A stretch of 64,000 nt of DNA, taken from positions 308,565 through 372,564 of the forward strand of contig NZ_KV917377.1 of assembly GCF_002019705.1 (NCBI RefSeq), given 5' to 3'. The position numbers and the translations under genes were made by a program. The DNA is from Shouchella patagoniensis. Its GTDB lineage: Bacteria > Bacillota > Bacilli > Bacillales > Bacillaceae_D. This document shows positions 5,997 to 55,476 of the stretch, piece by piece (the stretch's first letter is position 1; the number at the start of each line of letters is the position of its first letter). The notes beneath the pieces were generated by a model. It worked only from the letters and a program-made list of their open reading frames with translations, was not told the origin of the DNA and ran no database searches.

Positions 5997-7145
5997 ATGT
6001 TGTCCATCTTGCACAAGCAAACAACAGAAGAAAGAATGCAAGAATTACGCTTGATTATAAAGCCGTTCGCTGAAGTTGGTGAACGTCATGATCAGACTCA
6101 AACTGTACCAATTGAAAACATCAATGCATTACGCAAGTCAGGATACACAGCGTTGCCGTTGGAGAGAAAAGTAGGCGGTCAGCATATTTCCCTTTCTGAA
6201 TTAATTTCGTTGCAGGAAGCAATTGCAACCGCAGATGGACCAACAGCACTTTGTATAGGTTGGCATATGGGCACGATGTATCAACTTGCAACAGAAAAGA
6301 ACTGGCCAGCTACCACTTATGATCACATTGCCAAAGAGGTTGTTGAAAATGGAGTTTTACTTAACACTGCAGCAACTGAAAAGTCGACGGGGAGTCCTAC
6401 AAGAGGTGGGGTTTTTACGACTGTAGCCAAAGATTTAGGTACCAATTGGTTGATCAATGGAACAAAAACGTTTACAACCTTAGCTGAAGAACTGGATTAT
6501 TTTTTACTACTAGCAACGATAGAAGAAAGTAGCCAAACAGGTCTTTTTCTTGTTCCAAAAGGGACCGCAGGTGTCGATATTGAAAAGAATTGGGATATGA
6601 TGTCAATGGGTACAACAGGCAGCCATGATTTGCACTTAAGGGATGTGTCAATTCCGAAAGAGGGGCTTATTCGAATGCAATCAAGGTCTGGCTTGCCAAC
6701 AGCATGGCTTTTGCATATACCAGCTTGCTATCTTGGAATCGCCAAATCTGCCTTACAAGAGGCTGTACAATTTGCTAATTCGTATTCACCAAACAGTATT
6801 TCTGGGACTATTTCACAGCTTCCACAAGTGAAACAGAAGTTAGGGGAAGCTGCAATTCTTTATGAACAAGCCAGACACTTTCTATACGGGGTGGCAAAGG
6901 ATTGGGATGAAGGGGATATCGAAGTTAAAAAATCTTTAGCGCCACAATTAATGATGGCTAAATATTCGGTGGCGAATAGTGCCATTCAAATAGTTGATTT
7001 ATCGATGCGTGTTGTTGGCGCTCATAGTTTAGCTAACTCATCACCATTATCAAGACATTACCGAAACGTGCGTGCGGGTTTACACAACCCACCAATGGAC
7101 GACAAGACGATAGAAGTAGCTGCAGATTGGATTTTACAGAATTAA
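5997..7145 (+). CDS. Acyl-CoA dehydrogenase family flavoprotein (YdbM-like)
   Basis: A 382-residue flavoprotein starting at ATG 5997 behind AAAGGAG. The acyl-CoA dehydrogenase layout is seen: N-terminal helical domain, a beta domain around NTAATEKSTGSP and NGTKTFTT, and a C-terminal four-helix domain ending in VVGAHSLANSSPLSRHYRNVRAG. The R-H-Y-R-D/N-VR pattern near the end resembles YdbM and the DszC-like monooxygenase branch of the superfamily rather than classical fatty-acid dehydrogenases. The exact substrate is unknown. Monocistronic; converges on the split permease gene. Confidence 0.75.
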   Translation: MLSILHKQTTEERMQELRLIIKPFAEVGERHDQTQTVPIENINALRKSGYTALPLERKVGGQHISLSELISLQEAIATADGPTALCIGWHMGTMYQLATEKNWPATTYDHIAKEVVENGVLLNTAATEKSTGSPTRGGVFTTVAKDLGTNWLINGTKTFTTLAEELDYFLLLATIEESSQTGLFLVPKGTAGVDIEKNWDMMSMGTTGSHDLHLRDVSIPKEGLIRMQSRSGLPTAWLLHIPACYLGIAKSALQEAVQFANSYSPNSISGTISQLPQVKQKLGEAAILYEQARHFLYGVAKDWDEGDIEVKKSLAPQLMMAKYSVANSAIQIVDLSMRVVGAHSLANSSPLSRHYRNVRAGLHNPPMDDKTIEVAADWILQN

Positions 7146-7237
7146 TATACATGGTTCATTTACGTACATTCAATCGTTTAAAAAGAATAATGCGGAAAAA
7201 GCCATTTTACATTTTCTTTTGTCAGTAACTAATCGTT

Positions 7238-7274
7238 ATAAAAACACTCGGTTTATCACACCGAGTGTTTTTAT
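7238..7274. terminator. Bidirectional terminator
   Basis: A 14-bp perfect stem (ATAAAAACACTCGG) with a 9-base loop between the acyl-CoA dehydrogenase gene and the 3' end of the permease gene; A/T runs on both sides serve both strands. Confidence 0.85.
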
Positions 7275-7277
7275 AAT

Positions 7278-8297
7278 CTACCAAATTACAAGAGCAAGAA
7301 CAGTTGCGACTAAAAGCCCGCTTATAACTGGAATGAAACAAAGTCTTACTAATTCTTGTACATTTACTTTTGCAACGCCGGCAACGGCCACAAGTGATGA
7401 CCATGCAATTAGAGTCCCACCACCTACCCAAATGGCTCCCATCTGACCAATAGCGGCGAGTGTAGCAGCATCAATTCCCGATACTGGTGCTAAGGCGCCT
7501 GAAAGGGCCCCGGTAAGTGGAAGTCCTGAAAAACCAGATCCATCAAGACCCGTAATCATACCGATAGTAAGTAACCCGAACGCCGTCCAGGCGGGATGAG
7601 CAGGAATGAATTCTTCACCCGACTGCACTAGGTCAAATAAAAAAGCAGGCGTTTGCTCGACTCCAAGAATAGAAGGAGAAAAGTCATTGCTTCCAAGAAA
7701 AAAGAAACCAGCTATTGGGATAACTGGGCCCATTGCTTTAAACGCAAATATAAATCCTTCAACAAGGTGATTGCTGGCATCATCAAATAATTTTTTCGGT
7801 CGATCGAAGAAACATATGACGAGAAGCAATAAAGTAGCCATTCCACCTATTAGGGCAGCTCCAGCACCACCCTCAAGCTGCAATTCCGTAAAAAAAGCTG
7901 TGTAAAGCATGTAAAGAACAACAGCTGCAAAAACAATTGGAGTAATGAAAGCAAAGGTAGTAGATTTCCATGTAACTTTTGGAACATGTTTAGGTTTGAA
8001 TTGCTTGAGCCAAGCTTTTGCAGTTTTGTTCGCTTGTTTATTTGTTTGTTTTTTTAACATGTAATACAAAATGCTAATAGCTGTTCCGCCTGTAATTAAG
8101 GATAAGACGAGCGCGCGGTCAGCAACATCAGTTACAGGCACACCTGCTGCAGTCGCACTTAGCATTGGCGCAATTTGTATCATATAATCACTTGATAAAG
8201 CCATACCTTGACCCGCTATTGCAATTGCAGCAGCTGCAAAAAGAGGCGGTAACCCAGAGCGAATGGCTACTGGGATTAAAAGTGCACCTACTAATGG
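7278..8297 (-). pseudogene. C-terminal part of a permease gene split by the recombinase element
   Basis: This reading frame encodes the last 339 residues of a multi-pass membrane transporter. The longest ATG ORF inside it (from 8204) is only part of it; the frame stays open to 8298, reading PLVGALLIPVAIRSG at the junction. About eight hydrophobic segments and the glycine-rich ITGLDGSGFSGLPLTGAL near residue 220 of the piece are typical of ion-transporter-superfamily permeases. The missing first 125 codons are at 14497-14871. The two pieces join in frame (375 + 1020 nt) giving a 464-residue protein containing LFFWPTPAVPLVGALL. Substrate unknown. Unless excision occurs or an internal start is used, this part is not made as a full transporter. 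Confidence 0.75.
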
Positions 8298-8311
8298 TAC
8301 AGCAGGAGTAG
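8298..8311. repeat. Left attachment-site half (attL-like)
   Basis: TACAGCAGGAGTAG. Together with 14497-14510 (TACAGCGGGAGTAG) it flanks the element. It lies within permease codons T-P-A-V. The exact crossover dinucleotide cannot be fixed from sequence. Confidence 0.65.
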
Positions 8312-8346
8312 TGGAAGATACAAAAAAGAGGTCATTGTCTCGCTAT

Positions 8347-9789
8347 CTATCTGAATATAAAATTAGAAAGTGCTAATACTCGCTTGGAATGCGTCCTTCG
8401 TTTACCGTTCTCTGCATTAACCTCAAACCTTTCTAACAAGAGCATAACTGCTTGCTTTTTCTCCATAGGTTCTAATTGATTCCAGTTAGTTAAAAAGTTA
8501 GAAAGGATAGCAACGACTTGAACAGGGGAGTGGTTTAGGGGGGGCTTCGCTTCTACACGTAATAGTTCATTTTCTAATTCTTCATATCTTTTTCGATCTT
8601 GATTCATGTGCTCGCGTAGATCATTTAATGAGATAACGTCATCCGCATAGGCCATTTGCCATTTCTTTTTTCGTTCTTTAATTGCTTGCATTTGTTTTCT
8701 AATCTGAGCGACTCGCTGGTTTACTCCACTATTTTCTTGATCGACTGAAGCTGCAATTTCATTGGCTTCATCGAACTGGCTAACAAGAAGTAATTGCAGT
8801 TCATTAAGAAAACGCTTCTCGACATTTTGTTCACTAATAATAGGAAGGTCGCATTTACGTTCTCTTTGATTTGTGCAAACCAGATAAGTGTATGTGGTTT
8901 GATTTGTTGTTTTGCGCATTCTACCTTTTAACGAAGCGCCGCAACGACCACATTTAAGGGTTCCTGTAAAAATGTAAGTAGAGGAGACCGCTTTTGCTGA
9001 GACTTTACTTTTGGCAGAGCGCAAGTCCATTAACCGTTCATAACGCTCTTTAGAAACGATGCCATCACAAAAGCCTTCGTACACTTTTCCTCCCCATTGT
9101 AATGCTCCGTATGCGATAGGGTTTTTTAAGATATCTCTTACAGTTTTAGCAGAAAACGAATTTCCTAATCGGGTTTTCTTTTTTAACCCATGATTTAAGA
9201 TGATCGAGATCGCATTGTCGCCTTTAAAATCTTCATAGAGATCGTACATGTATTCATAGAGGCTTAGTTCATCGGGGTTAATTTGGAGCCTAGAATGTTT
9301 ATCAAGCTTGTAACCGAAAGGAGCAGGACCTCCTGGCCAGCGCCCCTCCTCAACCATTTGTTCCATTCCTAATTTAACACGGTCAGCCAAATTTTCACGT
9401 TCCCACTGTGCAACCGCTGCAACTAATGTAATAAAGAGTCTACCCGTAGGAGTAGTCGTATCAAATACCTCAGTCGCTGATTTAAACATACAGCCATGCT
9501 TCTCAAACCGTTCGAGTAAATGGTAAAGGTCCATAACGGATCTAGTGAGACGGTCTAACTTGTACACGAGTACAACTTCAATTTTACATTCAGAAATATC
9601 ATTTAGCATACGTTGCAATTCAGGTCGCCCCGTATCCTTAGCAGAGCGCCCTTCATCAACATAATAATCAACGGTTTCCCAGTCTTGAGAACGCGCAAAC
9701 ATTTCCAGACGTTCATGTTGTGCTCGAATAGAAAAACCTTCCTTCGCTTGCTCCTCGGTCGAAACACGCAAATAGATAGCTGCTTTCAT
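8347..9789 (-). CDS. Large serine recombinase (site-specific integrase)
   Basis: A 480-residue recombinase. The N-terminal resolvase domain has IYLRVSTEEQ with the catalytic serine at residue 10 and the arginines of LDRLTRS near 78-84. Residues about 150-250 form the recombinase domain (GPAPFGYKLD..). A zinc ribbon follows (CGRCGASLKGR...CTNQ..KCD, about 285-325), then a coiled coil (about 355-415). This is the architecture of phiC31/SpoIVCA-type integrases that need only short att sites. Its stop lies about 36 bases from attL. The upstream gene ends one base before its start, so the two are co-transcribed; RBS is GAAGGAG. It most likely integrates and, with a directionality factor, excises the element. 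Confidence 0.93.
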   Translation of the reverse strand: MKAAIYLRVSTEEQAKEGFSIRAQHERLEMFARSQDWETVDYYVDEGRSAKDTGRPELQRMLNDISECKIEVVLVYKLDRLTRSVMDLYHLLERFEKHGCMFKSATEVFDTTTPTGRLFITLVAAVAQWERENLADRVKLGMEQMVEEGRWPGGPAPFGYKLDKHSRLQINPDELSLYEYMYDLYEDFKGDNAISIILNHGLKKKTRLGNSFSAKTVRDILKNPIAYGALQWGGKVYEGFCDGIVSKERYERLMDLRSAKSKVSAKAVSSTYIFTGTLKCGRCGASLKGRMRKTTNQTTYTYLVCTNQRERKCDLPIISEQNVEKRFLNELQLLLVSQFDEANEIAASVDQENSGVNQRVAQIRKQMQAIKERKKKWQMAYADDVISLNDLREHMNQDRKRYEELENELLRVEAKPPLNHSPVQVVAILSNFLTNWNQLEPMEKKQAVMLLLERFEVNAENGKRRTHSKRVLALSNFIFR

Positions 9790-9790
9790 G

Positions 9791-10147
9791 TTAATCTCCT
9801 TCCATATAGAGTCGTCGTACTTCTAATTGCAACAGCTCTTCTACATCACTTACTTGCAAAATGAAATAATCGGCTTCATTTAATCGTTCTGGGTCATACC
9901 CAGTCAGGAGAATTTCTTTTTGTACGGTTGGAATATGGATTGTAATATCGTACGGATCAAACGGTCCTTTAGATAATGCACTCATTGTAACAGTGACAGC
10001 TGACAGTGAATCATGGAAATCCTCTATACGCTCAAAGGGGGCAGCTATGTTAAATGTTTTGTATTCTTCTTTTGTATTTACTGGGAGGAGTAACCATACG
10101 GGTAATAGGTCTCCATCGCGTTCTTCATAGTAAATTCCTATCTTCAT
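9791..10147 (-). CDS. Unknown protein co-transcribed with the recombinase
   Basis: A 118-residue soluble, acidic protein starting MKIGIYYEERDGDLLPVW and ending RRLYMEGD; no signal peptide, membrane segment or DNA-binding motif is evident. It contains mixed beta/alpha-type sequence with an LQVSDVEELLQLE helix near the end. The stop codon is one base from the recombinase start, and the recombinase RBS lies within its last codons, so the two are translationally linked. Its position makes it a candidate recombination accessory or directionality factor, but this is inference only; no family is recognised. Confidence 0.6.
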   Translation of the reverse strand: MKIGIYYEERDGDLLPVWLLLPVNTKEEYKTFNIAAPFERIEDFHDSLSAVTVTMSALSKGPFDPYDITIHIPTVQKEILLTGYDPERLNEADYFILQVSDVEELLQLEVRRLYMEGD

Positions 10148-10876
10148 TATTTATTGACTCCTCTATAGTTTTAGAAGCAAGTAAGTGTAATGATTTTTTT
10201 GTAACAGTTCGCAGTTGAAGATTTGTTCATTTTTTATTAATGGGCTTTGATTGAAAAAGAGACGCCGCTCCAAAAATATTTGCTAAAACAGCTGAAAAAA
10301 CCATTGTACAACTGAGATTGATTAATAGTCTTTTAATAAATGTATGATAAAGAGACGTGTTTTAGCAAAGTATAAGGAAACAAAGCGGACCAGTTCTTCT
10401 TATGACAGTATCATTGTGGATGTGGTCTGTCGATTCGCCTAGTACTATAAAGAACCTCATGTGGATAAATGAGAATGTATGTTTGTTTCAGATTCAAAGA
10501 AATTACCCTGATTAACAGGGTGGAAGTTTCGATAACTTAGAATTTTTAATTGTCGCTATTAATTTCATTTAATTAACCTCCGAATATTTTAATGATTTTA
10601 AACCATTTATATGTAACCTGATACTTTAGATTCCGTTAAGACATCCTTAGATTAGCAAGTTAAAAAGGTCCAAAAAGAAACGAGATACAAAGCAATGTTG
10701 GTATAAGAAGACATTATTATGTAATGGTCGATAATAAGTATGTATCCCACCTGTATAAACTGTTTAAGCGATAGTGAATGTGCTTGCTATAAAGTGATAT
10801 TTTTTGATGGGTCACAGTTTAGTTGGTCAGTCCCACCGTCTTAGATACATACCCTAACAAAAAGGAGGCGATCTAG
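10148..10876. other. Gene-free stretch within the element
   Basis: About 730 bases with stops in all frames and no open frame with a credible RBS. It holds the promoter region for the recombinase operon at its left end. A short hairpin (ACCCTG ATTAA CAGGGT, about 10505-10521) is the only structure noticed. It may be decayed sequence. Confidence 0.5.
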
Positions 10877-11005
10877 ATGGAGGAACGCGATACAAGCAAA
10901 CCATCGAAAGAGGCGGTTAAGAATTTATACAGATTGTTCATGAGAACCTCTGTCCCAAGAATTATAAAGAAACAGCAAGATGAGGCAAATCGAAAAAGTT
11001 CTTAA
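10877..11005 (+). CDS. Small basic protein, 42 aa, within the element
   Basis: ATG 10877 is preceded by AAAGGAGGCG at an ideal spacing, one of the best ribosome-binding sites in the window. The product MEERDTSKPSKEAVKNLY... (42 residues) has a charged N-terminus and a probable basic helix (NLYRLFMRTSVPRIIKKQ). No signal peptide. I do not recognise a named family. A weak hairpin at 11016-11036 follows the stop. The RBS is the main support. Confidence 0.5.
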   Translation: MEERDTSKPSKEAVKNLYRLFMRTSVPRIIKKQQDEANRKSS

Positions 11006-11613
11006 AGTTAATGCAGGACTCACTTAGATGAGTCTTGTTGGTGATAAGTTGGACAAGTTGATTAAGGAAGCTCTATCCTACTGGGCAATAAGCAAAGTCC
11101 TGTCAACAGATATGTTTTTACTCACTTGCTCTTTTTGATAGTCTCAACTTTGATACGGCAATGAAGAAGGCATATAGCTCTATGTAAGGACGACAGGTCA
11201 TACTCTCGTATCATTGGAAGATTGTATTTGAGTGAGACGAAATTGATGAGGGCTTATAGGAAGGCTCTGCAATGCGCTAATCAGATTTTTGTTTCTTTGA
11301 CTCGAACGTAGCTGAAAGGGAAAAAGCCGATAGCGGTAGAAACGGAACAACCTACAAAAATGGACTAGCTCCTAAGAAAAATTGTCCGCTTGCCAATAAG
11401 AGAAAAATTACAGACGCAATGTAGTATCGTTTTATCATAAGACTTACCTCATAGGAAATTTACGTTTTTATACCTTCAAACGTTTCATTACATAGTATCG
11501 TAAATTGATAAAATCGAAAACGTACTCTCTTGACAGAGCGGATAAGTTTCACTAGTGAGATTATGGTATGAGGATTAAGTTCCGAAATATTTGAGCCCTG
11601 CCTCTGCAGGGCG
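11006..11613. other. Gene-free stretch within the element
   Basis: About 600 bases with no supportable ORF. A hairpin GACTCA...TGAGTC at 11017-11034 could end the 42-aa gene, and GCCCTG CCTCTG CAGGGC (11595-11612) sits at the end of the next minus-strand gene. The rest looks like degenerate non-coding sequence. Confidence 0.45.
11595..11612 (-). terminator. Possible terminator of the 55-aa gene
   Basis: Perfect 6-bp GC-rich stem GCCCTG / CAGGGC with a 6-base loop just beyond the minus-strand stop; the trailing U tract is poor. Confidence 0.4.
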
Positions 11614-11781
11614 TCACACTCTTTTTTTAGGTGAAGCAAAGATCGTCCAAATTAAGAACACAATAAATGTTGTGAGAATAATGGCGCTCCAGCTTACCGC
11701 TCCAGGAAAAATAAATCTTAATACAATGCCCCCTCCAAACACCATCAGTGTTACTATTATAACTTCTATCCAGCGTTTCAT
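11614..11781 (-). CDS. Small two-helix membrane protein, 55 aa
   Basis: ATG 11781 follows TTGGAGGATTTAAA, a good RBS. The 55-residue product has two hydrophobic helices (about 5-25 and 30-49) separated by RFIFPGAVS and a basic tail SPKKRV. This composition and the RBS support a real gene and show that the plus-strand ORF over the same bases is a shadow. Family unknown; it is cargo of the element. Confidence 0.6.
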   Translation of the reverse strand: MKRWIEVIIVTLMVFGGGIVLRFIFPGAVSWSAIILTTFIVFLIWTIFASPKKRV

Positions 11782-12146
11782 TTTAAATCCTCCAATCTAA
11801 CTATAGGAGTATTTTACCCGCTGAAGAGTTAGTAAAAACATAGCTCTTTCATAATTGCAAAACTGTATATTGGTTGTTTACGTAGAAACTGAAGGGGGTG
11901 GGTTGAGGACAGCTAAGCCATCGTTTATGGTCTTACAGCTTGAAGAATAAAAAATGATAGAAGATAAAAGTCAATCTATATCTATGCGCATTAGCTATCT
12001 TCTGGCGTCTTAAATTCGATGCTGACCGACATAGTAGACAATGAATTGTGATTGATTAGGTGGCAGAGCATAAAGAAATTGATATGTCTAAAAGAAATGA
12101 ATATACAGTGATACGAAGGGAACAGTAAAAAGAAAAGGGTGTCGGT
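11782..12146. other. Gene-free stretch within the element
   Basis: About 365 bases without a convincing ORF. It includes the promoter regions of two divergent small membrane-protein genes. Confidence 0.45.
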
Positions 12147-12266
12147 ATGCTGTATTTTATTACTCAATTTATGACGTTAGGCCTAATAGTCTACGCAGTT
12201 TTATTCTTTATAATCTTTGTTATAATTATGGTAATCAAGTTATTCAGCAGAAATAAAAAGCATTAA
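12147..12266 (+). CDS. Small single-pass membrane peptide, 39 aa
   Basis: ATG 12147 behind AAAAGGGTGTCGG. The peptide starts MLYFITQFMT, is almost entirely hydrophobic to about residue 31 and ends LFSRNKKH, a topology typical of tiny membrane proteins or type-I-toxin-like peptides. No antisense RNA gene was recognised. Family unknown. Confidence 0.4.
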   Translation: MLYFITQFMTLGLIVYAVLFFIIFVIIMVIKLFSRNKKH

Positions 12267-12435
12267 CGTGGGATCCATGAATATAGAGCTGAAAATGACC
12301 TGTTTACGATCTTCCACCACGTTCTAATACGAAAGAGAATATTTAGTAATCGGGTACATAGAAGGAATCACTGCGTTAAGTGCAGTTTTATTTTTCGTGA
12401 TAAAATAAAGAAAATGATTTTAGCGAGGTTGTATC

Positions 12436-12790
12436 ATGACTAAACATAAGATTTATACAATGAGTTTTGCAAGTGTCTATCCCCATTATGTTACGAAGGC
12501 GGAAAAAAAAAGGACGCACGAAGAAAGAAGTCGATGACATCATTTGTTGGTTGACAGGATATAGTCAAGAAGAGTTAGAAACGCAACTGAGAAAACAAAC
12601 AGACTTTGAGACTTTCTTTGTGGAAGCTCCACAACTTAACCCTTCGCGTGATTTGATTAAAGGTGTGATTTGTGGCGTTCGGGTAGAAAACATCACGGAA
12701 CCAACTATGCAGGAAATCCGCTATTTAGATAAATTAATTGATGAATTGGCAAAGGGTAAAGCACTGGAGAAGATCTTGAGAAAGGAATAG
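12436..12790 (+). pseudogene. DUF2200 family gene with a +1 frameshift in a nine-A run
   Basis: Start ATG 12436 reads [25 protein letters not shown], the conserved DUF2200 N-terminus, but after the run of nine A at 12503-12511 the frame runs out. Reading on in the next frame gives [18 protein letters not shown]... through to ILRKE, the conserved remainder (stop 12790). With eight A the gene would be intact at about 117 residues. The second half alone opens an ORF from 12467, which is not a true start. DUF2200 proteins are small, uncharacterised and widespread. The indel may be a pseudogene mutation, slippage-based variation or a sequencing error. Confidence 0.8.
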
Positions 12791-12801
12791 TAAAAACAAA
12801 G

Positions 12802-12834
12802 AAACACTGATTTTATATTGATCGGTGTTTTTTG
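12802..12834 (+). terminator. Terminator of the DUF2200 gene
   Basis: Stem AAACACTGAT / ATCGGTGTTT (one G-U pair) followed by TTTTTTG. Confidence 0.75.
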
Positions 12835-12951
12835 TTACAAACAAAATTTAAACTTCGAACAAGCGAATGTAGTGTCTTGAGGAAATAAAGTAATTCTTTG
12901 ATATGATACCAAGCAATCCGAATACACTGTTTTATTTTTTTGGCAAGACCA

Positions 12952-13098
12952 CTAATTAAACCAAGTGGTTTTCAACCTTCCTACATAACGATAGTTAATA
13001 TCAACATGAACCATAATCGAGTAAAGAATCAAAACACCTAGTGCAAGAGTAGTGCTATGAATGTTTTCTTTACTAAAAACCATTCTAAAGAATTTCAC
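12952..13098 (-). CDS. Small membrane protein, 48 aa
   Basis: GTG 13098 is preceded by AGGAGG at 9 bases. The 48-residue product starts with a basic segment (KFFRMVFSKENIH), contains one hydrophobic helix (about 16-32, TLALGVLILYSIMVH) and ends in a polar tail. A hairpin ACCACT...AGTGGT overlaps the stop. Unknown family; cargo of the element. Confidence 0.5.
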   Translation of the reverse strand: MKFFRMVFSKENIHSTTLALGVLILYSIMVHVDINYRYVGRLKTTWFN

Positions 13099-13325
13099 GA
13101 AAAACAACCTCCTGGTTTTTGGTTTATTCTAACATAAAGCTAATTGAAGGGATGAATGAATAAAGGTATATAAACATGTGCTATGCAGGATTTATTACAA
13201 ATTTCACCAACTAACCATATTAAAATTTTGTAATATGGGTTGGGAAATGTCGCTATTCTATAATGTTACTGCAGATTTTAAGCTATGCTTATGCTGAAGT
13301 GAAAATTGAGGAGGATGATTTACAC

Positions 13326-14162
13326 ATGTTTAAACGTATGTCATCACTATCGACACTAACCTTATTTGCAATGATCGTGCTTACGTCTCAGCCTTCAGAA
13401 GCGAAGTTTGCTCAGCAGTCGATAACGATTATAGAATATCTTGACGTAGGTCAAGGCGACAGCACCTTAATTAGATCAGAAGATACAACGATTCTAATTG
13501 ATACAGGAGGCAATAGATCAACACTAGAACATTTAGAAGAACGTGGTGTGAATGACGTAGATTTACTTATATTGACACATGCACATGCTGATCACATTAT
13601 GAATGCGGATACAATCATCCATGAGATGTCGCCTCAGGAAGTGTGGATGTCAGAAACAAAAGCAACGTCTCAAGTCTATGAAAGGTTACTTGATGCGTTA
13701 ATTGAGACTAGCACGTTTGTGACATATCCAGAAGTTGGGGAATCGTACTCTGTTGGTCCGCTAGATTTTACTATCATTCATCCTTCAGGCCTTACAGGTG
13801 ATTTGAATGATGATTCACTGGGGTTTCAAATGGTAGCAGAAAATACAAGCTTTTTATTTACAGGCGATGCTGAAGAAAGAGCTGAACATAGGATGCTTGA
13901 TTCAGGTTTGGATTTACAAAGCGATATCTATCATATGGGTCACCATGGCTCAAACACGTCCAGTAGTGAGGCGTTTATATCTGCAATTCAACCCGAAGTG
14001 GCTATTTATTCTGCAGGCGTGGATAATCGTTACGGACACCCTCATTCAGAGGCTATCGAACGTGTGCAATCAGTCGGAGCGCAAGTACATGGAACAGCTG
14101 AAGACGGGACTGTAACGGTCAATGTAACGAATACTGGCTATATGGTTCAGACAGAGAGGTGA
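13326..14162 (+). CDS. Secreted metallo-beta-lactamase-fold hydrolase (ComEC/Rec2-like)
   Basis: I chose ATG 13326 (RBS GAGGAGGATG) over the upstream 13263 ATG because it begins a clean signal peptide, MFKRMSSLSTLTLFAMIVLT...PSEA. The 278-residue product then has the MBL core: LDVGQGDSTLI, ILIDTGGN, LTHAHADHIMN (metal ligands), LFTGDAEE, and MGHHGSN. This is the ComEC C-terminal-like subfamily of extracellular MBL proteins, often nuclease or phosphodiesterase-like. Its stop overlaps the beginning of a DUF3006 gene, a pairing common in Firmicutes. The protein lies within the recombinase element. Confidence 0.85.
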   Translation: MFKRMSSLSTLTLFAMIVLTSQPSEAKFAQQSITIIEYLDVGQGDSTLIRSEDTTILIDTGGNRSTLEHLEERGVNDVDLLILTHAHADHIMNADTIIHEMSPQEVWMSETKATSQVYERLLDALIETSTFVTYPEVGESYSVGPLDFTIIHPSGLTGDLNDDSLGFQMVAENTSFLFTGDAEERAEHRMLDSGLDLQSDIYHMGHHGSNTSSSEAFISAIQPEVAIYSAGVDNRYGHPHSEAIERVQSVGAQVHGTAEDGTVTVNVTNTGYMVQTER

Positions 14163-14167
14163 TAAAG

Positions 14168-14428
14168 GTGAGAGTAAAAGCAAATCTCGATCGAATAGAG
14201 GATGGTATTGCAACCTTATTAATTGGTAAAAAGGATGATGAATACAATCTAGCAGCCGATCAGCTTCCAAACGACGCTCTTGAAGGATCTTGGTTAATCG
14301 TTGAATTTGAAGGAAACAAAATGATTAATATTCAATTAGATGTTGATGAAACAGTAGGAGCGAAACAAAGAATTAATGAAAAAAAAGAAAGTTTAAATGT
14401 CAGTAAGAGTAAATATAAAAGAAACTAA
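14168..14428 (+). CDS. DUF3006 domain protein
   Basis: An 86-residue protein; GTG 14168 fits the AGAGGTGAT ribosome-binding site better than the overlapping GTG at 14159. The sequence (DRIEDGIATLLIGKKDDE, then GSWLIVEFEGN) is typical of DUF3006, a small beta-rich domain found next to secreted ComEC-like MBL proteins. It probably partners or regulates the preceding hydrolase; the mechanism is not known. A strong terminator follows and the element ends about 70 bases later. Confidence 0.8.
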   Translation: MRVKANLDRIEDGIATLLIGKKDDEYNLAADQLPNDALEGSWLIVEFEGNKMINIQLDVDETVGAKQRINEKKESLNVSKSKYKRN

Positions 14429-14463
14429 AACCAACGCTCCTTTGTGGGCGTTGGTTTTAGTTT
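14425..14463. terminator. Terminator at the right end of the element
   Basis: A 13-bp perfect stem (CTAAAACCAACGC and complement) with a 10-base loop, placed between the DUF3006 gene and the right attachment half. Confidence 0.85.
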
Positions 14464-14496
14464 AGGCAACATATTTGTTGCTACTGATACTTTAGC

Positions 14497-14510
14497 TACA
14501 GCGGGAGTAG
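14497..14510. repeat. Right attachment-site half (attR-like)
   Basis: TACAGCGGGAGTAG, matching the left copy at 8298-8311 at 13 of 14 positions. It lies at the codons for P-T-P-A-V in the truncated permease. Confidence 0.65.
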
Positions 14511-15142
14511 GCCAGAAAAATAAAGAGATACCATAGGTGACAACTAAGATAATTGTATAAGAAGCGGTAGCATTTTTCATTACTTTAGAAAAGGGACGAA
14601 TCATTTGCTCATTTGCGCCAATCGAGTCCAAACTACGTAACAAGGCAGTCATAATAGCAATAATTAAAAAAATATTAAACAGTTCTCCCGCCGCCACAAG
14701 GCTTGCTAAAAAGACGGTCTGGATACCTGATAGTAGAGAGCCTGTAAAGAATAGACCAACAATAAATGTCATTACAATAGCTGGTACAACTACATTTTTG
14801 CGAGCTAGCATAGTCAATACAATAAATACAATACCAACTAAATAGATCCAGTGGACGGCAAGGAGATCCATATTGTACCCTTCTTTCGTTATAGAGGCTA
14901 TGATAGTGTATGAAAAAATAGGAGTGTAGGTGAACATCAGGGTTCCTTTATATTAGTGAAACCAATCGTTGGAAATAACGGAATGGAATAACGATGTGCT
15001 GACTGTCACTTAGAACGATTATGAACGAATGAATTCATCACTGCTTAGAATGATGGATAATGGGTATTTAAAGGAAGAAGAGGATCGAAATAATAGGACC
15101 CTGAATAATGTGAGTCGTTTAAGCATAAAAAGAGGTGACGAT

Positions 15143-15493
15143 ATGAATAGAGGGAATATGTTTTCGGAGGTAGAGAAATCAACAGTTGGGTCAACAAAGA
15201 GAGTGAGTGTTAAGTTTGTAACAGAGGAACTAAGTGAAGAAGATGTAAAAAAACTAGTATCAATTCTTTTAGAGAATGTACGAGAGGATAACGATGTCGT
15301 TAATCTTTATTTATATAAACATGTTGAACAAAAAGAAACATTTAATTGTTATTGCCGGGTTCAGTGGTCAAATGATGAGGCTCAATCCGTGCCACAAATC
15401 CAATTCGATGAGATATGTGACGATCATGTTTATTTAAAATGGATGAATGAGCGTGGAGAGTTAAAAGAAATGGTTCAAAAAGAAGAAAATTAA
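15143..15493 (+). CDS. Hypothetical protein, 116 aa
   Basis: ATG 15143 is preceded by AGAGGTGACG at good spacing; the longer ORF from 15029 lacks an RBS. The product is acidic and soluble, with a likely helix ELSEEDVKKLVSILLEN and a C-terminal beta-like part (CRVQWSNDE...YLKWMNERG). No motif or family recognised. It has no close partner genes. Confidence 0.55.
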   Translation: MNRGNMFSEVEKSTVGSTKRVSVKFVTEELSEEDVKKLVSILLENVREDNDVVNLYLYKHVEQKETFNCYCRVQWSNDEAQSVPQIQFDEICDDHVYLKWMNERGELKEMVQKEEN

Positions 15494-15672
15494 AGGATTT
15501 ATATAAAATAGCAAATTTTGCTGGTTAACCCATTATTGAATAGAGGTAGCAGTTATTTATGTCGCCAATATTTGTAATGATATTGCGCTAAGTTCACGTT
15601 CTTTCTTTTAAATAAATCCTCCGAATAAGTTTGTCAATTTTGACTATTCATTTAAGGAAGGTGTTACGTGTT

Positions 15673-21906: not shown

Positions 21907-22620
21907 TTATTTTGTTGCTATTATGAGAGCGTGACCGATTTTATCTCCGAAAACATTCATTGTTTGTTGATGAGATTGAAGTGTTGCAAAGCTTGATGGT
22001 GAGATTGTTTTAGATGGCATCATATCGTTTCCTTTATCACTGTCGTCATGCTGCAATTGCGAAGCACTTACCTTACCGGAAACCTCAACTGATGAAAAAC
22101 CAAGCGCAAGTAATGTTTTTTTCCACTCAGATTCAGTAAACAATGAAGTGAAACCATAAATGGAAGAGAGTTGTTTTTTTTCTTCTGGCATTAAAGATTC
22201 TGTGCAAATGAGTTCATTTGCATACATAAGGCTTCCTTGTTTCATAACCCGAAAGATTTCGCTAACGGCTTGATCAAGCTGACAAAATGATAAGACAGAT
22301 TCAGCAACTGCTACATCAACACTTTCATTTCCAAGAGGCATGGACTCGATTTTTTCTTGCAAAAGAACAATTGGTAACTGATTTTGCTCAAAGCGCTGTT
22401 TTGCTTTTGCAGCCATAACGGGGTGGGCTTCGATAGCAATTACACGACAATCATATAGTTGCTGTAGATAAGCTGCTGTTTGACCCGTGCCACACCCACA
22501 TTCCATTACCGTCATTGTTTCTTGTATATCGATGTCCATTAGCATTTGTTTTGTTTTCGAAAAACCGCCTGGATGGGCACTGCCAATACCGAATTCAGCT
22601 AGCATGTCTGTATATTTCAT
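21907..22620 (-). CDS. Class I SAM-dependent methyltransferase
   Basis: A 237-residue protein with the SAM-binding motif VMECGCGTGQTAAYL (about 38-52), the acidic end of strand 2 (AIEAHP) and motif IV-like VDVAVAESVLSFCQ. The GGF near residue 20 (SAHPGGFSKT) and the order of motifs resemble methyltransferases acting on small molecules. The start is ATG 22620, spaced from a GTGAG-type RBS. Substrate unknown; monocistronic. Confidence 0.8.
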   Translation of the reverse strand: MKYTDMLAEFGIGSAHPGGFSKTKQMLMDIDIQETMTVMECGCGTGQTAAYLQQLYDCRVIAIEAHPVMAAKAKQRFEQNQLPIVLLQEKIESMPLGNESVDVAVAESVLSFCQLDQAVSEIFRVMKQGSLMYANELICTESLMPEEKKQLSSIYGFTSLFTESEWKKTLLALGFSSVEVSGKVSASQLQHDDSDKGNDMMPSKTISPSSFATLQSHQQTMNVFGDKIGHALIIATK

Positions 22621-23003
22621 TATTATCAACTCACTTTCTCTGCATATACATTAGGCTATGCAAAAGGCTAAAGTAAGTGTTATATGACAATTAGATTTCA
22701 TTTGTAATTGCAAACCATGCTGAAAGAAGCGAAAATGTATATGAAAATGTAGAATCATGCCAATGAAAGACCGTTTGCGTTGAAAATCTAGGACAACCCG
22801 TATTTATAGGTGATGAATAATGTGAAAATATGAATAAATACCAAAATTTAATTGTTTGTCTATTCATTATACTGTGATAATATGACTGAGCCGTAACGAT
22901 TGTTACAGTTCGATGTCTAAAGCGTTAAGAAAGGTGAATTGCGATTGTACCGCGCTTCAAAGGCTGGTAATATCCAAATCAGAAAGATTCGAAGGAGGGG
23001 TTT
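22621..23003. other. Intergenic region upstream of the first wall-protein gene
   Basis: About 380 bases with no ORF. A 5-bp palindrome GTAAC-GATT-GTTAC (about 22893-22906) lies about 100 bases before the start codon. No riboswitch was recognised. Confidence 0.45.
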
Positions 23004-44321: not shown

Positions 44322-44430
44322 ATTTGCGTAAATAATTTCACATACCGAATGATGAAACTAAAGAAAAACAAGCACCAACCTACACTAAACGCATAGGCTA
44401 CAACAAAAGCTTAACAAATGAGGTGTCCTG

Positions 44431-45357
44431 ATGGATGTATACAAAAATGTCCATGAATTGATTGGTCGTACACCAATGATCGAGTTAACATCGTTTGTTT
44501 TGCCAAACAATGTACGGTTATTTGCAAAACTAGAATTTTTAAATCCAGGAGGCAGTATTAAAGACCGATTAGGAGTGAAGTTATTACGTGATGCAATTGA
44601 GAAGAATAAAATTACTTCTTCCGGTACTTTAATTGAACCAACTGCTGGTAATACGGGAATCGCATTGGCACTTGCAGCTATAGGAACCGAGGTTAAAGTA
44701 ATATGTGTTGTGCCTAATTCATTTAGTATTGAAAAGCAACAAATCATGAGAGCATTAGGTGCTACTGTCATTAATACGCCAAGTGAATACGGTATAAAAG
44801 GGGCAATTGCTCATGCAAAAAAATTAGAACAATCAATGAAAGATACGTTTTGCCCACAGCAATTTCATAATCATGCAAACCCTGCAACCTATTTTGAAAC
44901 ACTTGGTCCAGAAATTGATGCTCAATTAAATGGCCATATCGATGTATTTATCGCAGGTGCAGGGTCGGGAGGAACGTTTTCTGGAACAGCAACCTATTTA
45001 AAGAAACAGTACCCTGGAATTCGGACAGTGGTTGTTGAACCTGAAGGATCGATTTTAAATGGCGGGGAAATTGGCCCGCATCGAACAGAAGGAATTGGGA
45101 TGGAGTTTATTCCTGATTTCGTTCATACAACTTATTTTGACGAAATTTATACAGTTTCAGATAAAGTCGCATTTAAACGAACAGCGGAAATTGCCAGGAA
45201 AGCAGGCTTGTTAGTTGGGAGTTCCTCTGGAGCAGTGCTAGAAGCTGCTCTACATGAAGCATATTTGGCTAAAGCAGGTTCTCATTTAGTTACTGTGTTT
45301 CCAGATGGCGCAGAACGATATTTAAGTAAGGGTATATATGAGGGGGGAATCGATTGA
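44431..45357 (+). CDS. mccA: Cystathionine beta-synthase (O-acetylserine-dependent), MccA
   Basis: A 308-residue PLP enzyme of the cysteine-synthase/CBS family, with PLP lysine in NPGGSIKDRLG, TAGNTGIAL substrate loop, GAGSGGTFSGTATYLK phosphate loop and SSSGAVLEAAL. Gene pairing with mccB, whose start overlaps its end by 4 bases, marks it as MccA of reverse transsulfuration (homocysteine to cystathionine), rather than CysK. Confidence 0.9.
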   Translation: MDVYKNVHELIGRTPMIELTSFVLPNNVRLFAKLEFLNPGGSIKDRLGVKLLRDAIEKNKITSSGTLIEPTAGNTGIALALAAIGTEVKVICVVPNSFSIEKQQIMRALGATVINTPSEYGIKGAIAHAKKLEQSMKDTFCPQQFHNHANPATYFETLGPEIDAQLNGHIDVFIAGAGSGGTFSGTATYLKKQYPGIRTVVVEPEGSILNGGEIGPHRTEGIGMEFIPDFVHTTYFDEIYTVSDKVAFKRTAEIARKAGLLVGSSSGAVLEAALHEAYLAKAGSHLVTVFPDGAERYLSKGIYEGGID

Positions 45358-54921: not shown

Positions 54922-55476
54922 CTAGTGCGCCTTGTCTAAATACCTATACAGCGTGGTCTTACTGATACCAGCCGCCACTGTAATTTGCTTAATTGTATAG
55001 TCTTTACTCTTATACATCTTAATAGCCATTTCCACTTTATCTTCTTTCTTAGTAGGTCTCCCACCTTTCTTTCCTCTTGATCTTGCTGCTTGAAGACCCG
55101 ACTTTGTTCGTTCACTAATAATATCTCTTTCTAGTTCAGCGATGCTTGCCATTGTACGAAAGAAAAACTTTCCAATTGCGGTTGAAGTGTCAATACTGTC
55201 ATTAATTGATACAAAATGTACACCCCTATCGTTAAATAACTCGCTCAGTTCTATCAAATGCTTTGTGGAACGTGAAATACGGTCAAGTTTATATACAACA
55301 ATTTTATCGCCACTTCGTAAAACTTTTAAAAGCTCTTCTAATTGAGGCCTATCTCTTCGAGTGCCCGTTAATTTTTCTTTATAAATCTTCTCAACCCCGA
55401 ATTTTGTTAATGCATCAACTTGCATATCTAAATTTTGTTCTTCCGTACTTACTCGCGCGTAACCAAAAATCATCAT
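54922..55476 (-). CDS. tnpR: Tn3-type resolvase (serine recombinase)
   Basis: 184 residues starting MMIFGYARVSTEEQNLDMQ with the catalytic serine at residue 10. YKLDRISRSTKHL and TSTAIGKFFFRTMASIAELERDIISERT follow; C-terminal helix-turn-helix GGRPTKK...TIKQITVAAGISKTTLYRYL. It belongs to the resolvase/invertase branch used by Tn3-family transposons to resolve cointegrates. It lies upstream of a decayed Tn3 transposase in the same orientation. No clear res site was identified. Confidence 0.9.
   Translation of the reverse strand: MMIFGYARVSTEEQNLDMQVDALTKFGVEKIYKEKLTGTRRDRPQLEELLKVLRSGDKIVVYKLDRISRSTKHLIELSELFNDRGVHFVSINDSIDTSTAIGKFFFRTMASIAELERDIISERTKSGLQAARSRGKKGGRPTKKEDKVEMAIKMYKSKDYTIKQITVAAGISKTTLYRYLDKAH

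Follow-up and report, generated by a model that had tools for sequence, protein, structure and literature searches.

A 6.2-kb recombinase element splitting a permease gene in Shouchella patagoniensis: a probable sporulation gene-intervening element

Is a gene that lies in two pieces on a bacterial chromosome a ruin, or is it held in pieces to be rejoined when needed? The question is raised by a 64,000-nucleotide stretch of Shouchella patagoniensis DNA (contig NZ_KV917377.1, positions 308,565 to 372,564; hereafter the window), in which a DcuC-like permease gene on the reverse strand is cut in two by a 6.2-kb element. An earlier note on this DNA had left open whether the locus was a regulated gene-in-pieces or a decayed insertion. 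The first alternative is favoured here by promoter motifs of sigma-K type, by purifying selection, by the symmetry of the att sites and by the retention of a small open reading frame (ORF). The best reading is a sporulation gene-intervening element like skin and SPbeta, apparently with a new target and in an unusually small natural form. The element is probably derived from a temperate phage, and its excision in the mother cell, driven by a recombination directionality factor (RDF), would rejoin the permease in frame. Its termini and flanks are as follows.

14500..14871, reverse strand: permease 5' part, codons 1-124, open frame
7278..8297, reverse strand: permease 3' part, 339 codons and stop, open frame, DcuC (PF03606) match
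14473..14524, reverse strand: attL, 25-nt host arm and 25-nt element arm, crossover GT at 14499-14498
8274..8325, reverse strand: attR, 25-nt element arm and 25-nt host arm, crossover GT at 8300-8299
8347..9789, reverse strand: large serine recombinase, 480 aa, open (PF00239, PF07508, PF13408)
14422..14463, reverse strand: hairpin just within the element, its 16-bp arms perfectly matched

The two junctions have 13 nt in common with one mismatch, TACTCC(C/T)GCTGTA, and their crossover dinucleotides are 6,199 bp apart. Rejoining gives the frame FFWPTPA-V-PLVGALL. The codon count first proposed holds for the 3' part, and that of the 5' part falls from 125 to 124, since the shared Val codon had been included. 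The 3' part scores 24.9 bits against PF03606, marginally above the curated cut-off of 23.1, and 28.8 bits against NCBIfam DcuC_1 (cut-off 100); the 5' part matched no DcuC-type profile. The recombinase gene ends 47 bp from the crossover dinucleotide, close to the position at the left repeat given in the earlier note, and the hairpin may act as a stop for transcripts of the unrearranged 5' part. An otherwise intact gene is split in frame at one site, and the intervening DNA contains a site-specific recombinase and is bounded by matching att sites, as is characteristic of sporulation gene-intervening elements (skin, SPbeta/spsM, vfbin, gin and yin).

Uninterrupted forms of the gene are plentiful. 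From 519 confirmed relatives of the permease 3' part, 80 named loci were kept, of which 76 have an uninterrupted permease and four are interrupted where the window's gene is. In each of the 76 intact loci a single codon, Val in 75 and Ile in one, stands between the equivalents of the window's two parts, and all share the junction peptide FFWPTPA(V/I)PL. Together with the two open parts this bears out the in-frame junction proposed in the earlier note, which was to be abandoned if no relative had an uninterrupted permease with a matching junction. The four split loci belong to S. miscanthi, Alkalicoccobacillus porphyridii, A. gibsonii and a record titled Bacillus suaedae. In a sample of 41 genomes of the host family (G000 being the window's genome), G008 carries an exact empty site while being nearly identical to split S. 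miscanthi (360 of 360 nt in the 5' part and 1017 of the 1020 nt compared in the 3' part).

Insertion at this codon has recurred within the family. The permease 3' part was found at E <= 1e-40 in 36 of the 41 genomes, and a search for the element elsewhere, as the earlier note had advised, showed the gene split at this codon in six, each time with both permease parts open and a related recombinase on the 3'-part side. The elements differ greatly in size:

G000: 6.2 kb, the element in the window
G012: 26.2 kb, recombinase 76% identical to the window's
G013: 54.6 kb, recombinase 63% identical
G019: 51.5 kb, recombinase 63% identical
G030: 39.8 kb, recombinase 62% identical
G025: 46.4 kb, recombinase 49% identical

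The recombinase gene and an adjacent gene encoding 118 aa in the four split named loci are letter-for-letter those of G012, G030, G013 and G025, respectively. G012 has an extra 449-aa ORF on the opposite strand between the recombinase and the permease 3' part. Phage structural families (portal, head, baseplate, tail) were matched by seven of nine proteins scanned from G030, G012 and G013; one of the others matched a phage family of unknown function and one had no match. Synonymous divergence (dS) between G013 and G019 is 0.10 for the recombinase, far below the 0.47 and 0.55 of the permease parts, so elements at this site move between hosts. Saturation of dS in the majority of recombinase and permease pairs confined its use to G013-G019 and G000-G006. 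As a separate observation, a second copy of the permease 5' part lies in a 204-aa frame at G011:C23:705-1076, about 4.9 kb from the intact gene.

When would a rejoined permease be made? Upstream of the 5' part lies a candidate promoter:

14904..14932, reverse strand: sigma-K-type motif, CACC-N16-CATACACTA, lying 32 bp ahead of the permease start codon

The permease looks like a late mother-cell gene because this type of motif is conserved upstream of it. The strict form, [AC]AC[AC]-N15-17-CATANNNTA, precedes all six split and 38 of the 76 intact genes, against a mean of 0.5 and a maximum of 3 of the 82 in 100 shuffles and none on the reverse strand. A looser AC-N15-18 form precedes all six split and 45 of the 76 intact genes (shuffle mean 1.6, maximum 5). 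Strict matches over the 80 whole loci number 59 in 1,988,576 strand-bases, the permease ones included. The sigma-K-dependent bclA promoter of B. thuringiensis is reported as CAC-N16-CATATGTTA (PMC4750369). The sigK gene itself is uninterrupted in the window's genome.

The recombinase contains Resolvase, Recombinase and zinc-ribbon domains and by profile is a phage integrase (phrog_95, E 2.2e-129). Its nearest relatives among 50,697 phage records are integrases of Geobacillus-type phages (NIIg3.2, PK5.2, E2, D6E), about 41% identical over nearly the whole length; its earlier assignment to the large serine type stands, and the term 'SpoIVCA-like' was loose. Ser10, which we take to be the catalytic serine, is invariant among the six aligned recombinases. 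In all six split genomes the crossover is consistent with the GT of the Val codon, and the attP obtained by joining the two 25-nt element arms has inverted repeats around this GT (shuffle p <= 0.001 each). Complementary positions number 21, 21, 18, 18 and 17 of 25 in the larger elements and 15 in the window's element, where attP symmetry is lowest among the six, although the arms still look usable. Symmetry is lower in the attB arms (6-10 of 25, p 0.034 to 0.61). Neither of the two IMG/VR records closest by recombinase gave a match to the permease N-half, a result that is uninformative. Elsewhere in the window, a second serine recombinase of resolvase/invertase type (184 aa, 54922-55476, reverse strand) is 31% identical to residues 46-160 of the element's enzyme.

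Excision would call for a partner of the recombinase. When the window's element was compared in all six frames with its five larger counterparts (E <= 0.01), three coding stretches proved to be shared, the recombinase and two small ORFs:

9791..10147, reverse strand: 118-aa ORF upstream of the recombinase, ImmA-associated phage family
10877..11005, forward strand: 42-aa ORF, candidate RDF, phrog_30936 match
10848..10856, forward strand: -10-like CATACCCTA upstream of the 42-aa ORF
10825..10840, forward strand: conserved block GGTCAGTCCCACCGTC upstream of the -10

The 118-aa ORF was first favoured as RDF for its skr-like place, directly upstream of the recombinase in all six elements. It was set back because other prophages have it behind an ImmA-like HEXXH gene and in front of serine recombinases or tyrosine integrases, the latter in L188, L190 and L287 (by eye from protein starts). 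Loci L181-L191 and the family loci L272-L291 indicate that many prophages place this family between an ImmA-like gene and an integrase of either type. In the five larger elements it is likewise preceded by an ImmA-like gene (HEXXH), and a further conserved ORF, of repressor type, is shared. The window's 118-aa ORF had no match in Pfam, NCBIfam, PHROGs or PADLOC, and its predicted fold (mean pLDDT 88.7) none in PDB at E <= 0.001. A role as accessory factor is possible.

The 42-aa ORF is our candidate RDF, with a putative mother-cell-type promoter. At E <= 4e-21 its profile picks out seven of the family's 41 genomes, all six with a split permease and the Shouchella metagenome-assembled genome (MAG) G006; three further matches in the family are weak (1.1e-7, 6.2e-5 and 0.0096), as are those in phages PK5.2, D6E and NIIg3.2 (E 0.001 to 0.1). 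All six aligned members match phrog_30936, a family of unknown function. Among 48 IMG/VR records with a relative, many of them fragments, a phrog_95 integrase occurs in 38, a tyrosine integrase in eight (one of these lacking phrog_95) and neither type in nine. Between G000 and G006 the ORF has 14 synonymous and 6 other codon differences (non-synonymous divergence, dN, 0.062; dS 1.44; dN/dS ~0.04), indicating strong purifying selection.

Its upstream region is also distinctive. By hand count, all eight elements of the group have a CATA box whose first base lies 29-32 nt ahead of the start codon: G000, G006, G012, G013, G019, G025 (counted from the third of three possible starts), G030 and the L294 record, whose insertion site is not known. 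In contrast, among the relatives in 46 further IMG/VR records, for which a script chose the start codons, CATA occurs at -29 to -32 only once and CATANNNTA within 80 nt in no case (Fisher p 8.6e-9 and 2.2e-4, the rows not being independent). Box and upstream block are conserved between G000 and G006, where the flanking DNA aligns poorly. The block GGTCAGTCCCACCGTC is possibly an activator site or a -35 region. A SpoIIID-like site within it was considered and is not claimed, because such a site has about a 20% chance of arising by luck (rough hand estimate).

Excision need not be tied to sporulation. The permease could be toggled in vegetative cells by excision under stress or in a growth phase, an active lysogeny for which the Listeria comK phages are a precedent, and the ImmA-like gene and repressor-type ORF of the five larger elements could permit excision induced by damage. 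In the window's element neither ORF can be traced, yet the CATA box of the 42-aa ORF is retained, and the permease promoter motif is of sigma-K type; we judge vegetative switching improbable.

What the smallest element has kept is informative in its own right. Between the 42-aa ORF and attL it carries three further genes:

12436..12790, forward strand: DUF2200 gene, reading frame disrupted near 12503 in comparison with G006
13326..14162, forward strand: ComEC-like metallo-beta-lactamase-fold hydrolase, cargo, dN/dS ~0.20 to G006
14159..14428, forward strand: DUF3006 protein, cargo, dN/dS ~0.18 to G006 over 60 codons

The recombinase, the 118-aa ORF and the 42-aa ORF are the only phage genes left; no trace of phage structural genes, or of the ImmA and repressor ORFs, was found in the 6.2 kb. 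The core of this mini-element is also present in G006, on a 3.9-kb contig that matches the window's element in six pieces (77-88% nucleotide identity) taking in the two cargo genes (hydrolase and DUF3006), DUF2200, the 42-aa ORF and the beginning of the 118-aa ORF. The permease 3' part is conserved between the two genomes as well (dN 0.041, dS 0.646 over 209 codons). In rate tests the split G000 gene is no faster than that of its intact sister G001 (34 vs 36 changes, p 0.9; tree branches 0.189 and 0.209), eight comparisons made for the remaining five split genes yielded p values from 0.29 to 1.0, and the permease distance between G012 and G008 is zero in the tree. A test of G000 against G002 (68 vs 24) was not used, the tree placing G002 beside the outgroup with a support of just 0.507.

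These data bear on a rival explanation, that the conserved codon is an ordinary phage attB, that lysogens lose the permease and that the window's element is a decaying prophage. Such a site would suit the movement of elements between hosts, the head and tail genes of the larger ones and a permease that is not always needed, as copies in G027 and G032 are broken without any element; it accounts less well for the open permease parts in all six split genomes, the conserved 3' part of G000 and G006, and a loss that looks selective, with the structural genes gone and DUF2200 broken while the recombinase, the att sites and the 42-aa ORF with its box were kept. We consider this explanation unlikely. 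That the element is kept for its hydrolase and DUF3006 cargo, the split being incidental, is much less credible still: the pair is conserved between G000 and G006 (dN/dS ~0.2), but no match to it was found in the five larger elements, and both the 42-aa ORF and the permease are under tighter constraint. The hydrolase matches PADLOC defence MBL models at E 3e-19 or weaker, and no defence function is claimed. The DUF2200 frame shift sits near an A-run. A plasmid search returned one record matching the element, over the DUF2200 region only, a Pseudalkalibacillus plasmid 83% identical over 388 bases beneath a DUF2200 gene. Rfam gave no match in 7000-15500.

The mechanism that we infer for a sporulation gene-intervening element at this locus begins with a temperate-phage lineage. 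Its large serine recombinase would insert the phage into a permease gene at the conserved FFWPTPA-V-PL segment, with crossover at the Val codon's GT, and this gene would be one that a sigma-K promoter switches on late in the mother cell. In the window the element would then have been reduced to 6.2 kb, with retention of the att sites, the recombinase, the 118-aa ORF and the 42-aa ORF, probably the RDF. With the recombinase present at a low level, the 42-aa protein would be made in the mother cell during sporulation from its own CATA-type promoter and would turn the recombinase towards excision. The circle would leave, the permease would be rejoined in frame and made from its sigma-K promoter, and the chromosome of the forespore and spore would retain the element.

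Several known systems resemble this scheme. The SPbeta prophage in spsM of B. subtilis is described in PMC4191935 as using a recombinase and a tiny accessory protein, there of 58 aa, to rejoin its target in sporulation, and SPbeta cut down to sprA and sprB still excises during sporulation. Here, unlike SPbeta, the target is a permease, the 6.2-kb element is natural and the 42-aa candidate belongs to another family (phrog_30936). The sprB promoter is reported to have a perfect mother-cell -10 and an imperfect -35 (PMC4191935), and the region upstream of the 42-aa ORF likewise combines a good -10 with no fitting -35. The skin element in sigK (spoIVCA/skr in B. subtilis, CD1231/CD1234 in Clostridioides difficile) pairs a large serine recombinase with a small RDF, as is proposed for the present element; its target is sigK, which is intact here. 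Its RDFs, of 64 and 53 aa, are reported to be under mother-cell control (PMC6957869, PMC5025042 and PMC10747680), and in C. difficile the recombinase is constitutive and the RDF dependent on sigma-E and SpoIIID (PMC5025042). According to PMC5595907, gin in gerE of Bacillus cereus (girC and girX) resembles our element in having a serine recombinase, an accessory factor, for which ours has a candidate, and a short core shared by the att sites and in being a gene-intervening element with no phage-related genes, and differs from it in its 28.6 kb and three recombinases. Sporulation gene-intervening elements have been reported in sigK, spsM, spoVFB, spoVR, gerE and yabG, and titles and abstract openings in the open PMC literature mention no element that splits a permease or lies in Shouchella.

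Several results weigh against excision in the mother cell. Even the looser promoter motif is missing from 31 of the 76 intact permease genes. Upstream of the 42-aa ORF, no -35 fits sigma-E or sigma-K, and the full CATANNNTA is present in only four of the eight elements (G000, G006, G012 and L294). A sigma-E or sigma-K promoter for the recombinase operon was sought and set aside, no strict match to either motif being found within the element. G006 is 86% complete and has the element and the permease piece on different contigs, the recombinase was not found in this incomplete MAG, and its permease 3' part has two frame breaks, which are assembly errors or real. Rate tests of G000 against G009, G010 and G004 lean to more change in the split gene (p 0.14, 0.064 and 0.068). 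By eye, CATACATT strings upstream of the recombinase operon may descend from a phage operator.

Going further, we lean slightly towards a history in which one phage lineage specialised on a sigma-K-controlled permease and brought its 42-aa RDF under a promoter of mother-cell type. At least two Shouchella species would carry it reduced to a 6-kb excision cassette owned by the host, a natural counterpart of the laboratory construct SPmini that silences a transporter until a late stage of the mother cell. Many phrog_95 integrases would then have their RDF in the phrog_30936 family. That members of one recombinase lineage hit a transporter in three genera suggests that phages of spore-formers use timed rejoining more widely. 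By separating the parts selectively kept from those lost, the mini-element singles out a candidate RDF that can be tested for a large integrase family and that would also be of use in genome engineering, and an unstudied permease is nominated for a role late in sporulation.

Two further strict sigma-K-type motifs occur in the window, before ORFs named by eye: one at 44373-44400 (forward strand), about 30 bp upstream of a cysteine-synthase-like ORF (44431-45357), and one at 22652-22681 (reverse strand), about 22 bp upstream of a methyltransferase-like ORF (21907-22629, reverse strand).

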